Source: Candidatus Cryptobacteroides avistercoris (GTDB lineage Bacteria > Bacteroidota > Bacteroidia > Bacteroidales > UBA932). From it: DNA of 44,438 nt. This document shows positions 3,859-39,662 of this stretch, in pieces. The stretch's first letter is position 1, and the number at the start of each line of letters is the position of its first letter. The DNA lies in the NCBI GenBank assembly GCA_017695095.1, contig JADILW010000062.1:1-44438 (forward strand), written 5' to 3'. The notes under the pieces were generated by a model. The model saw only the letters and a program-made list of their open reading frames with translations, searched no databases and was not told the DNA's origin. Position numbers and translations under genes: made by a program.

Positions 3859-4497
3859 ATGCAGATGACAAAGGAACAGGAAATACTCTCGGCCGCATCG
3901 GAGGAGTTCTTCGAGAAAGGCTACGACGGCACATCCACTGCGGTGATAGCGCGGAAGGCGGGTGTCACGCACGCGATGGTCAACTATTATTTCAGGACGA
4001 AGGAACAGCTGTTCCTCAGGATACTCGACTCCGCGGTCTACGACTTCGTTCAGGGTCTCAAGCCTATAATGCATGGGGAGGGGGATTTCCTCCGGACCAT
4101 CCTGAATGCCGCTTCGGCAATCTTCGACTGCATGGACAGACATCGGAGGCTGCCTTTCATGATCATGGACCTTGCGCGCAACCATCCCGAACTTCTTGAC
4201 CGCTACCTTGAATCCGGAATGAGCGAAGCAAGGGGAGTGATAGCCGGGCATTCCGGGCGGCTTGCGGCGCAGATAGCCGCCGGAACATTTCCCGAAACGG
4301 GCATAGAAGACATTCTGGATACTGTGCTGACTCTTGCGACGGCGCCTTTCCAGAACATACCGCTGCTCGAGAACGTGCTGCATTTCACCTCCGGACAGAT
4401 TGAAGATTATCTTCAGGCCCGCAAGTGTGAGATGCTCTGCATGCTCGAACGGCGCTACTCCCTTCAGCCGCCGGAGGGAGCCGATGAAGACAAATGA
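3859..4497 (+). CDS. TetR/AcrR family transcriptional regulator
   Basis: N-terminal HTH ILSAASEEFFEKGYDGTSTAVIARKAGVTHAMVNYYFRTKEQLF. Confidence 0.9.
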   Translation: MQMTKEQEILSAASEEFFEKGYDGTSTAVIARKAGVTHAMVNYYFRTKEQLFLRILDSAVYDFVQGLKPIMHGEGDFLRTILNAASAIFDCMDRHRRLPFMIMDLARNHPELLDRYLESGMSEARGVIAGHSGRLAAQIAAGTFPETGIEDILDTVLTLATAPFQNIPLLENVLHFTSGQIEDYLQARKCEMLCMLERRYSLQPPEGADEDK

Positions 4498-4520
4498 CAA
4501 GACTGATAAACAATGATATT

Positions 4521-5507
4521 ATGACAGAAAAGAAATTGTACTGGGGCAGGACGATAGCGTCGTTCTTCCTCGTTCTGTTCACGATGCCCCTCGGACATGC
4601 GCTGATGCGCGTTATGGAGGAGACGATGGAGACTTCGGTGATGAACACCTGCGCTTTCATAATGGGTGCTGTCGGACTGGCGATAGTTGTCTGGGGCGTG
4701 TTCGTCAAGGGAGACACGAAGCAGACCCTGTTCGGACTGTTCGGCGGCCTGCTGTTCTGGACCGGCTGGGTGGAGTTCCTCTACGGGTATTTCGCGATGC
4801 GTTTCGGCGTGCATTACGACCTGGTGGGCTCCGGCACGGTGCAGACGATCACCGAATACGTCAACGGCATCGGCGTGAGCCATGACATGCTGATAAACGG
4901 CGTCAATGTGAACGACATCCCGGCCGACGTGCTGAAGGAGATGCGTGGTTCGCGCCCGGAGTACCTGATAATGCCGGCTTCATTCGGTTTCTGGGTGATG
5001 TTCATCGTGCTCTACCTCTTCGGCTCGCGCACCGGCTGCCATGCGCTGAACTGGCTGCAGAAGGTGTTCTTCGGCAAGAAGATGCAGGAGATAGTGCCGC
5101 GCTCGATGAGCCGCCATACGGCAATCACGACCTTCATGGAGTTGAACATCATGATGTGGACCATGTATCTGCTGCTGATGTTCGTCTACGACCCGGCGTT
5201 TCTGGGGGAGAGCCATCCGGTCACGATAGCCATTGCGATCGGCTGCCTCGTGGGCTCGATCTTCATGTTCCGCTATGAGCTCGGTCTGCACGGCTGGGGC
5301 CCGAACATCCGCATGGCGATATCGACCGTGGTGATCTTCTGGACGACCGTGGAGGTCTTCGCCCGCAACGGTTTGCTGACCGAATTCTGGATCGACCCCA
5401 TGAACCATGTTGCCGAGATGGTGAGCATACTCGTATGCTTCGTCGCCCTCGCCGCCTTCCTGATCATCCGCGCCGTCCGTCACAGGAAAGCCGTAGAAAG
5501 CAATTAG
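4521..5507 (+). CDS. Conserved multi-pass membrane protein of unknown function
   Basis: Several hydrophobic segments; probably co-transcribed with the TetR gene (alternative start 4494 overlaps the tetR stop). Confidence 0.6.
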   Translation: MTEKKLYWGRTIASFFLVLFTMPLGHALMRVMEETMETSVMNTCAFIMGAVGLAIVVWGVFVKGDTKQTLFGLFGGLLFWTGWVEFLYGYFAMRFGVHYDLVGSGTVQTITEYVNGIGVSHDMLINGVNVNDIPADVLKEMRGSRPEYLIMPASFGFWVMFIVLYLFGSRTGCHALNWLQKVFFGKKMQEIVPRSMSRHTAITTFMELNIMMWTMYLLLMFVYDPAFLGESHPVTIAIAIGCLVGSIFMFRYELGLHGWGPNIRMAISTVVIFWTTVEVFARNGLLTEFWIDPMNHVAEMVSILVCFVALAAFLIIRAVRHRKAVESN

Positions 5508-5514
5508 TATTATA

Positions 5515-5631
5515 ACCTATGTCAGATGCTCCCTGCAGAGAGGTTCCGCTTCGCTCCATCCCGCCGCTTTCGCGGCACCCACTTACGGCCGTGGGCGGCC
5601 AGCCTCTCTGCAGGGAGCATCTGACATAGGT
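5515..5631 (+). repeat. Structured repeat copy E1: 29-nt perfect inverted repeat around a 59-nt core
   Basis: Arms 5515-5543 ACCTATGTCAGATGCTCCCTGCAGAGAGG and 5603-5631 (exact reverse complement); core 5544-5602 TTCCGCTTCGCTCCATCCCGCCGCTTTCGCGGCACCCACTTACGGCCGTGGGCGGCCAG. Confidence 0.9.
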
Positions 5632-5661
5632 AACAGATATAATAATAGATATATTGCGTGT

Positions 5662-5772
5662 CGGCAGGTGTGCCGGCGTCCGGGAGGCTTGCCGTCCGCG
5701 GCAGTGAGCGGACGATGCGAAGCATCGATGGAGCGCTTGCGCGTAACCTCCCGGACGCCGGCACACCTGCCG
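5662..5772 (-). repeat. Structured repeat copy E2: 26-nt perfect inverted repeat around a 59-nt core (opposite orientation to E1)
   Basis: Arms 5662-5687 CGGCAGGTGTGCCGGCGTCCGGGAGG and 5747-5772 (exact reverse complement); core on the minus strand reads TTACGCGCAAGCGCTCCATCGATGCTTCGCATCGTCCGCTCACTGCCGCGGACGGCAAG. Confidence 0.9.
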
Positions 5773-5782
5773 CTACAACATG

Positions 5783-6625
5783 CTACCGGGTTCTGATGAC
5801 GCAGTCGGCGGGCGGCAGTATGTTCTCGTCGAGAGTGACGGAGCCGATGGAGTCCGCGACAATCAGCCCCGAGGTCGGATTCTTGATGTTGGCGATCGAA
5901 CCGCGGATGTCTGCTCGCAGAGTCGAATACTCGAAAGCCCTGTCGCAGGCCGCGTCGAAAGTACAGTTCTCCAGCACCAGGTCGTGAGCATAGCACAGAG
6001 GCTGCTCGCCCGAGATATGGCAGTTCACCAGACGCAGGTTCCTGGAATGCCAGCCGAGATATTCACCGTCCAGCACCGAGTCATAGATTGTCACGTTCTC
6101 GACCTCCCAGAACGCATCCTTGGTAGTTATCCTCGCATTGTGAATCTCCACGTTCTTCACATACTGGAACACGTACTTGCTGTCGCTTTCCAGTCCGTCC
6201 ACGATGATGTCCCTGCTGAACATGAAAGGATAGGTGCCCTCATGCAGCTTCAGGTTCTTCACCCTGATGCCGCTGCAGCGCCAGAACACCTCGTCGGCGT
6301 CGTTCATCACGACGTTCTCGATGTCGATCTCGCTCATCTCGCGGAACATTTTCGGCGCGTCGATCACCGTGTCCTTCATCTTCAGGTGGTCCGAATACCA
6401 GAGCGCCGAGCGTCCGCCGACCGCGAAGTAGCAGTTCTCGATCGTGAAGCCGTGGACATGCCAGAAAGGGTAGTTGCCCTCGAAGCGGCAGTTCGTAGCC
6501 ACGATGTTGCTGCATTCCTTGATCGCGGACTCGCCGGCGAGTATGGTCACGTTGTCCAGATGGAGGTCGTGCGACGCGAACAGCGGGCGCTCGCCCCCGA
6601 ATTCCCTATTCTTGATCAGCTGCAT
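5783..6625 (-). CDS. DUF3737-like beta-helix protein
   Basis: Repetitive beta-helix pattern with MQLIKNREFGGERPLFASHDLHLDNVTI...GESAIKECSNI; resembles DUF3737 proteins. Confidence 0.7.
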   Translation of the reverse strand: MQLIKNREFGGERPLFASHDLHLDNVTILAGESAIKECSNIVATNCRFEGNYPFWHVHGFTIENCYFAVGGRSALWYSDHLKMKDTVIDAPKMFREMSEIDIENVVMNDADEVFWRCSGIRVKNLKLHEGTYPFMFSRDIIVDGLESDSKYVFQYVKNVEIHNARITTKDAFWEVENVTIYDSVLDGEYLGWHSRNLRLVNCHISGEQPLCYAHDLVLENCTFDAACDRAFEYSTLRADIRGSIANIKNPTSGLIVADSIGSVTLDENILPPADCVIRTR

Positions 6626-35598: not shown

Positions 35599-35650
35599 GA
35601 CTGCGGAAGGGGTGGCTAGCCTCTCCTGAGGCAGCACCCCTTCCGCAGTC
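35599..35650 (+). repeat. Structured repeat relic E4: 16-nt inverted repeat retaining only the GGCTAG-CCTCTC end of the core
   Basis: Arms 35599-35614 GACTGCGGAAGGGGTG and 35635-35650 (exact reverse complement); interior GCTAGCCTCTCCTGAGGCAG matches the 3' core/arm junction of E3. Confidence 0.7.
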
Positions 35651-35670: not shown

Positions 35671-36261
35671 ATGTCAAGTGAAAAAGAAAAATGCCGCGCA
35701 GGCGGGCTCTATGACGCCAATCACGACAGGCAGCTTATTGAGGAGAGGCTCAGGTGCAAGCGCCTGTGCTTCGAATACAACCGGCTTGACCCAGGGTTGG
35801 AGGAGCGCCGGGAGGAGATGCTGCGCGGACTGCTCGGAAAGACAGGAAAGAACTTCCTGATAGAGCAGCCGTTCCTCTGCGACTACGGCTACAATATCGG
35901 AATCGGGGAGAATTTCTACGCGAACGTCAATTGCGTGATACTCGACGAGGCCGCCGTGACTTTCGGGGACAACGTTTTCATAGGCCCGAACTGCGCCTTC
36001 TACACTGCCGCTCATCCTCTCGATGCTGGACAGCGCCGGCTCGGACTGGAGTTCGCACGCCCTATCTCCGTCGGCAGCGACGTATGGATAGGCGGCAACG
36101 TGGTCGTGCTTCCCGGAGTCACGATTGGGGACGGCTGCATCATAGGTGCGGGCAGCGTGGTGACCCGGGACATACCGGCCGGCTGTCTCGCCTTCGGCAA
36201 TCCCTGCCGCGTCATCCGCGCAGACTATGACCAGACTTGGTCGTTGTCCGATGCGCCGTAA
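35671..36261 (+). CDS. Maltose/galactoside-type O-acetyltransferase (left-handed beta-helix)
   Basis: EQPFLCDYGYNIGIGENFYANVNCVILDEAAVTFGDNVFIGPNCAFYTAAHPLDA; hexapeptide repeats. Confidence 0.9.
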   Translation: MSSEKEKCRAGGLYDANHDRQLIEERLRCKRLCFEYNRLDPGLEERREEMLRGLLGKTGKNFLIEQPFLCDYGYNIGIGENFYANVNCVILDEAAVTFGDNVFIGPNCAFYTAAHPLDAGQRRLGLEFARPISVGSDVWIGGNVVVLPGVTIGDGCIIGAGSVVTRDIPAGCLAFGNPCRVIRADYDQTWSLSDAP

Positions 36262-36373
36262 GGCCGGTGGGCTGCCTTCAAGGTTCCGCTGCGCTCCATC
36301 GATGCTCCGGAGCATCGCCCGCTCACAGCCGCGGGCGGCTAGCCTCTCAGGCAGCCCACCGGCCTTACGGCGC
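36253..36373 (+). repeat. Structured repeat copy E3: about 31-nt inverted arms around a 59-nt core
   Basis: Outer 25 nt perfectly paired (36253-36277 with 36349-36373), a 3-nt mismatch, then AGG/CCT; core 36284-36342 TTCCGCTGCGCTCCATCGATGCTCCGGAGCATCGCCCGCTCACAGCCGCGGGCGGCTAG. Confidence 0.9.
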
Positions 36374-39577: not shown

Positions 39578-39599
39578 TCTGACCGGAAACGGAGCAGAA

Positions 39600-39648
39600 A
39601 TTGCCCCGTAGCAGGCGAGAACTTGAGAAAAGCCTGCTGCGGGGCAAT
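39600..39648. terminator. Bidirectional hairpin terminator between convergent lysA and nadE
   Basis: ATTGCCCCGTAGCAGGC (39600-39616) pairs with GCCTGCTGCGGGGCAAT (39632-39648) with one G-U wobble. Confidence 0.75.
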
Positions 39649-39662
39649 CTCTGCGCAACAGT

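Follow-up and report, generated by a model that had tools for sequence, protein, structure and literature searches.

How long inverted arms can remain perfectly paired in neighbouring elements whose arm sequences differ is the question raised by two adjacent palindromes, E1 and E2, that lie in opposite orientation in the genome of Candidatus Cryptobacteroides avistercoris. The original prediction, made from the sequence of the whole 44,438-nt stretch analysed here (the window), described perfect arms of 29 nt in E1 and 26 nt in E2 around exactly 59 nt, and cores that share TTNCGC...CGCTCCATC, a hairpin of variable sequence and a closing AG-CCTC. All of these features are present as described, and the arms are 100% complementary. 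E1 lies 7 nt downstream of the stop codon ending the plus-strand gene 4494-5507, and the stop of the convergent minus-strand gene 5783-6625 (DUF3737) is 10 nt from the end of E2. The third copy, E3, has 71 nt between 25-nt perfect arms, and its left arm covers the final 9 nt of plus-strand gene 35671-36261 (acetyltransferase-like). Across the window, exact inverted 16-mer pairs separated by 30-150 nt all fall inside E1, E2 or E3, and a scan of the 44 kb found no further inverted repeat of comparable quality. An intergenic 23-nt inverted repeat between two genes at 39594-39654 (91% complementary, 15-nt loop) falls outside the family by the model and is perhaps a terminator. As RNA, E1 and E2 fold with z = -11.5 and -11.7 against dinucleotide shuffles; the E1 core folded alone gives z -0.98, no gain over shuffles, such folding being blind to pseudoknots. 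The anatomy of the three copies and of a core-deleted remnant is collected in Table 1.

Table 1. Features of the palindromic elements in the window, in window coordinates.
Feature	Coordinates	Strand	Description and basis
E1, whole palindrome	5515-5631		Opposite orientation to its neighbour E2
E1 left arm	5515-5543	.	29 nt, perfect complement of the right arm; from sequence
E1 core	5544-5602	-	59 nt, structured strand minus; core model and strand analysis
E1 right arm	5603-5631	.	29 nt
E1 pseudoknot	5578-5601	-	Placed by hand from the sequence on the covarying model
E1 pseudoknot, S1	5601-5597 with 5590-5586		UGGCC/GGCCG; L1 = 5596
E1 pseudoknot, S2	5595-5591 with 5582-5578		CCCAC/GUGGG; L3 UAA = 5585-5583
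E1 variable hairpin	5563-5576	-	GCCGC-GAAA-GCGGC; placed by hand
E1 minihairpin	5548-5554	-	GC-GAA-GC (GNA triloop); family-wide GC-GNA-GC pattern
E2, whole palindrome	5662-5772
E2 arm	5662-5687	.	26 nt
E2 core	5688-5746	+	59 nt, structured strand plus; structure placed by hand on the covarying model
E2 S1	5689-5693 with 5700-5704	+	UUGCC/GGCAG
E2 S2	5695-5699 with 5708-5712	+	UCCGC/GCGGA
E2 hairpin	5714-5726	+	GAUGC-GAA-GCAUC
E2 minihairpin	5733-5742	+	GCGC-UU-GCGC
E2 arm	5747-5772	.	26 nt
E3, whole element	36253-36373		Third copy in the window
E3 left arm	36253-36277	.	25 nt, perfect outer part
E3 core and inner arm	36278-36348	-	Inner arm TCAAGG/CCTCTC, 3 mismatches
E3 right arm	36349-36373	.	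25 nt
Remnant	35599-35650	.	16-nt perfect arms; 20-nt middle with only the core end (GCTAGCCTCTCCTGAGGCAG)

E1, E2 and E3 belong to an uncatalogued family of repeats that occurs across the gut genus Cryptobacteroides. In the 1.64-Mb draft genome of the host, a covariance model made from their three cores matched 49 sites with E no higher than 1, about 45 of them at E < 0.01 and the best of them the core of E3 (E 2.4e-21). A second, wider model built from 82 matches recognised 241 of the 400 congeneric genomes with hits at E up to 0.001, the number of hits reported for each genome being capped. In a sample of 295 genomes of the order, mostly non-congeneric, it matched nothing beyond the host itself, a single sister genus and a single genome from another family, and an exact-pattern scan of GTDB genomes brought up two MAGs in which true copies are numerous, Candidatus Cryptobacteroides merdipullorum (G212) and the Bacteroidales MAG BRZ_GE__bin89 (G342), both same-genus relatives of the window's genome (G000). 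Matches of that scan in Actinobacteria, Proteobacteria and other groups lack arms and were set aside as chance. The search thus took in the genus, the order and a single pattern scan. Every carrier genome is a draft, in many cases a MAG, and the copies are phylogenetically related, so that the p-values given here are indicative. Rfam (release 15) at its gathering cut-offs has no match in the window; at a permissive E-value, six loci drew eukaryotic miRNA models only, below cut-off, and these score any long hairpin. The family proposed as novel therefore has further copies in abundance and matched neither Rfam nor a known family with conserved termini, and literature searches for palindromic or noncoding repeats in Bacteroidetes and bacteria, or for Cryptobacteroides by name, turned up nothing relevant. 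Copies often lie at contig ends, and assemblies of the genus have probably been broken by such palindromes in many cases. At one locus (L113, C. merdipullorum contig DVLC01000006) the contig end is folded back through the element, an assembly artefact, and its apparent arms of 163 nt were discarded.

The core length of 59 nt, correct for E1 and E2, does not extend to the family, in which cores range from 56 nt to a long form of 159 nt and lengthen either by growth of the internal hairpin or by addition of a further structured segment. On the strand opposite to that used in the original prediction, the core starts with an H-type pseudoknot (S1 of 4-7 bp, L1 of 1 nt, S2 of 5 bp and L3 of 3-4 nt ending UGA or UAA), continues with the variable hairpin and carries in its 3' part a GC-GNA-GC minihairpin, found in 111 of 121 copies; what had been taken for a second hairpin is better read on this strand as part of the pseudoknot. 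Over 35 distinct sequences, 94.8% of the pseudoknot cells are paired and 39 are changed on both sides, against 9.2 in shuffles, with none of 500 shuffles as high, and every slid control drops to 32-53% paired. On the reverse strand a single nucleotide would have to span the minor groove of a 5-bp helix, a sterically improbable arrangement. The pseudoknot is sterically sensible only on the strand opposite to the one first read, to which we assign the structure. The folding energy of the core favours the same strand in three of four sets, with no preference in the G000/G342/G212 set. The long form (L091:4420-4638; also L038-L042, L196 and L201), whose 159-nt core includes a highly conserved structured segment (CTCAACCTCCATTTCATTCCGGTTGGC...), is alike in G342 and G000 and often lies at contig ends; it is possibly the fuller or active form of the element.

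Among 121 deduplicated copies the arms have a mean length of about 28 bp and end abruptly near 30 bp, and beyond the inner few positions pairing is mostly about 95%. Beyond about position 22 from the core, the information content in the 55 copies of the G000/G342/G212 set is about 0 bits, yet these outer positions mostly pair. The original statement that the arms share nothing is too strong: the inner arm shows a weak consensus across copies, and in the host genome a subfamily of some 15 copies has identical arms in every copy. Shared arms occur also in G225/G100, and arms common to the copies of a subfamily indicate that arms can travel with the element. Some subsets of genomes contain many copies of one identical or near-identical core, about 80 nt long, and the arms differ from copy to copy; identical cores with such different arms require either homogenisation of the cores or fast change of the arms. 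Mismatches in the inner arm are inherited with the core and stay uncorrected (TCGAGG/CCTCTC in the host genome, GGTACC/GGTGCG in G294/G296), so that any conversion between arms is incomplete and its correction partial. With these inherited positions excluded, arm mismatches in the orientation first read are A-C in 52 cases and G-T in 19, a bias that amounts to G-U-type mismatches being favoured on the structured strand; these counts are sums over sets in which some copies are related, and so are partly dependent and of approximate significance. Each arm also shows slight self-folding.

Comparison of flanks among the genomes of three species (G000, G342 and G212) gave 21 orthologous element pairs, whose arms, with the innermost six positions left out, have an identity of 0.68 as against 0.40 between non-orthologs, and whose cores have one of 0.825 as against 0.731. 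The E1/E2 pair is kept in G342 with its order, orientation and E1 core type unchanged, and the E1 arms differ there at 12 of 29 positions, each of them changed on both arms. The persistence of pairing through sequence change, first noticed between E1 and E2, thus extends to orthologous copies, and the matched changes in E1 and other orthologs indicate that, by descent, the two arms change together. Of the 21 pairs, 10 have the core inverted, and exchange between the arms would explain this inversion. At the L022/L116 pair, the G000 arms match the orthologous element and the G000 core is 95% like that of a neighbouring G342 element; neighbouring copies may exchange cores. The ortholog in C. merdipullorum of the core-deleted remnant at 35599-35650 is a full element. 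E3 was rejected for a comparison of insertion with empty site, as synteny breaks there.

With genes predicted by a simple codon model trained on the window, 97 of 99 copies with enough flank lie outside genes; 44 lie between convergent and 12 between divergent genes, and in tandem contexts 17 are in sense and 20 in antisense orientation. These counts form the pattern of tolerated interspersed repeats and not that of cis-acting terminators. The absence of a sense/antisense bias and the copies between divergent genes defeat a reading as intrinsic terminators, as the original prediction had anticipated. Insertion into terminator hairpins was likewise rejected, a native terminator-like hairpin being intact beside L230.

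The family belongs to the class of short interspersed palindromic repeats, apart from REPs, MITEs, retrons and invertons. MITEs, like Correia-type and BOX/RUP repeats, are non-autonomous interspersed repeats with inverted ends; the Cryptobacteroides elements were rightly held to be unlike a standard MITE, since their arm ends are unconserved and their terminal repeats differ between most copies, the shared-arm exceptions being those of the host subfamily and of G225/G100. Invertons, common in Bacteroidales, are segments between inverted repeats that are flipped by recombinases; here too a segment between inverted repeats occurs in both orientations, but the arms are without a strong common site, the core is a structured repeat and not a promoter, and flips are seen only between species. 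In the msr/msd RNA of retrons the a1/a2 ends pair and close a structured RNA, whereas the present family is high-copy, and a reverse transcriptase (RVT_1) was found in none of eight carrier genomes, all drafts. A close likeness is to the RAYT-associated REPINs, REP doublets and BIMEs, which are likewise short and intergenic, occur in many copies and consist of paired inverted sequences that fold into long hairpins (PMC3116915, PMC2817692), part of which shows compensatory changes. In REPINs the ends are conserved 16-mers and the hairpin of the spacer varies, with compensatory changes (PMC3116915), whereas the Cryptobacteroides family has a conserved centre and free ends. It is, as REPs and REPINs are, an intergenic many-copy inverted doublet that forms a hairpin; it is without their tagged conserved ends, and no Y1 gene flanked by the repeat was found, four of eight draft carriers giving no match. 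We therefore describe it as a new, REP-like family of interspersed elements in which the REPIN layout is turned "inside-out". GTAG- and CGTC-tagged repeats, among them the palindromic elements of Rickettsia, are similar in their heterogeneous stems, dimers and likely RNA hairpins, but they carry an unpaired terminal tag, GTAG or CGTC, that this family does not have; CGTC repeats are without a known transposase (PMC3733652).

Our preferred reading, to which we give a probability of about 0.55, is that of a non-coding palindromic family recognised by its fold, in which conversion between the two arms preserves their match and also flips the core. Its spread, present or past, would be that of a non-autonomous unit recognised by fold and not by the sequence of its ends. 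In a resident element, conversion between the arms would keep them matching, through a DNA hairpin or cruciform, through template switching during replication or through recombination of one inverted arm with the other; these exchanges would flip the core as well. Both template-switch correction of quasi-palindromes and perfect inverted repeats that evolve in concert have precedents in other systems (PMC7202029, PMC6649704). In nematomorph mitochondrial genes the arms of perfect inverted repeats evolve in concert, and template-switch conversion has been proposed; those repeats lie in coding genes and are without a conserved core (PMC6649704).

Conversion between the arms leaves the strand-biased wobble unexplained, for which selection on one RNA strand is a better fit, and this pattern keeps alive the alternative that the element is a functional RNA. 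Selection on a transcript would then maintain arms and pseudoknot, for example as an element of 3'-end stability, RNase III processing or termination, with arm changes arising as ordinary compensatory mutations via G-U pairs. The pseudoknot whose loop lengths make steric sense on one strand only, the GNA triloops on that strand, the 52 to 19 excess of G-U-type mismatches toward it and its lower folding energy in three of the four sets all argue in this direction. A cis-acting function would be intolerant of elements that lie in sense and antisense almost equally, also between divergent genes, and that are flipped in nearly half of the ortholog pairs; moreover, the G000/G342/G212 set lacks the energetic preference and the mismatch counts are not fully independent, and on balance we consider an RNA function unlikely. 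Rather improbable, in our view, is movement of a REP/REPIN-like element by a RAYT (Y1 HUH) transposase acting on single-stranded hairpins. The REPIN-like size, intergenic location, hairpin architecture and copy number would suit it (PMC3116915), as would the slight self-folding of the arms, and Y1 transposase genes (Y1_Tnp, PF01797) are present in four of eight carriers (G294, G296, G323 and G142), beside other palindromes, some of which share the plan of conserved core and locus-specific arms. However, Y1_Tnp has no match in G000, G212, G342 and G001, which have many copies each, an absence that is provisional in drafts 74-93% complete; the ends of the element are without a conserved tag, unlike those of REPs, which bear GTAG or CGTC (PMC3733652), and the inspected loci are flanked by other palindromes, with one loose, unconfirmed pattern match to a core of the E1-E3 type (L375). 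Palindromes with a third core (GGAGCGTTTTACCCCCTTTTTTGCTCC type) and perfect arms of 15 and 23 nt occur near Y1 (RAYT-like) genes at L375:793-879 and L378:1226-1328, and these are the better candidate for a RAYT-linked repeat in the genus.

The original prediction ascribed the paired arms to selection on structure or to a mechanism that regenerates the palindrome; the pairing is indeed conserved, but its regeneration from flanking target DNA is not supported by the empty alleles. Were each insertion to copy flanking host DNA into an inverted second arm, outer arm positions would pair without sequence information and locus-specific outer arms would surround identical cores, as is observed, and two empty sites, L281/L279 (a family-2 element, 9 nt) and L011/L147 (8 nt), are suggestive. 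In 13 comparisons of element and empty allele, however, similarity of the empty allele to the arms at its own locus did not exceed its similarity to those of other copies (Fisher p 0.51), and such capture is very unlikely. L229/L238 and L020/L318 were dropped as evidence of native arms, as their "empty" alleles may be deletion remnants. No target-site duplication is evident in the element/empty alignments, in which the flanks have diverged. Since arms are absent from empty alleles and common to some subfamilies, they belong to the element. That the family consists of chance palindromes or assembly artefacts, as the fold-back at L113 and the many copies at contig ends might suggest, is practically negligible as an explanation, because the family recurs with intact arms in many genomes assembled independently, and at orthologous sites.

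To return to conversion between the arms, a more far-reaching form of this reading, which we put forward only tentatively and regard as doubtful, is a class of elements defined by fold, in which free arms are actively held perfect and the core flips continually through palindrome conversion at the DNA level, a process that would be new as the way in which a bacterial repeat family exists. Such a process may be general in Cryptobacteroides, since palindromes with different cores (e.g. GTGCCACAATGCAGGCTGACGCCGAAAGCAC) follow the same plan in the same genomes. This second family, with a core of about GTGCCACAATGCAGGCTGACGCCGAAAGCAC and locus-specific, nearly perfect arms, was seen in flanks L281, L287, L292, L218 and L333 (G294, G001, G296 and G323). 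At site L239/L281 a palindrome of this type occupies the intergenic place held by a family-1 element in another species, and at L287 one adjoins a broken family-1 copy.

Conserved sequence is the usual mark by which interspersed repeats are recognised, and compensatory change is as a rule read as proof of RNA function. In the family described here, arms of about 28 bp keep pairing as their sequence changes between orthologous loci, in elements that flip and have no preference for sense or antisense. The family also offers ready-made markers throughout a common genus of the gut, the assemblies of which it appears to break. It makes directly testable whether compensatory change can come from palindrome conversion at the DNA level instead of from selection on RNA, which bears on covariation-based claims of structured RNA.
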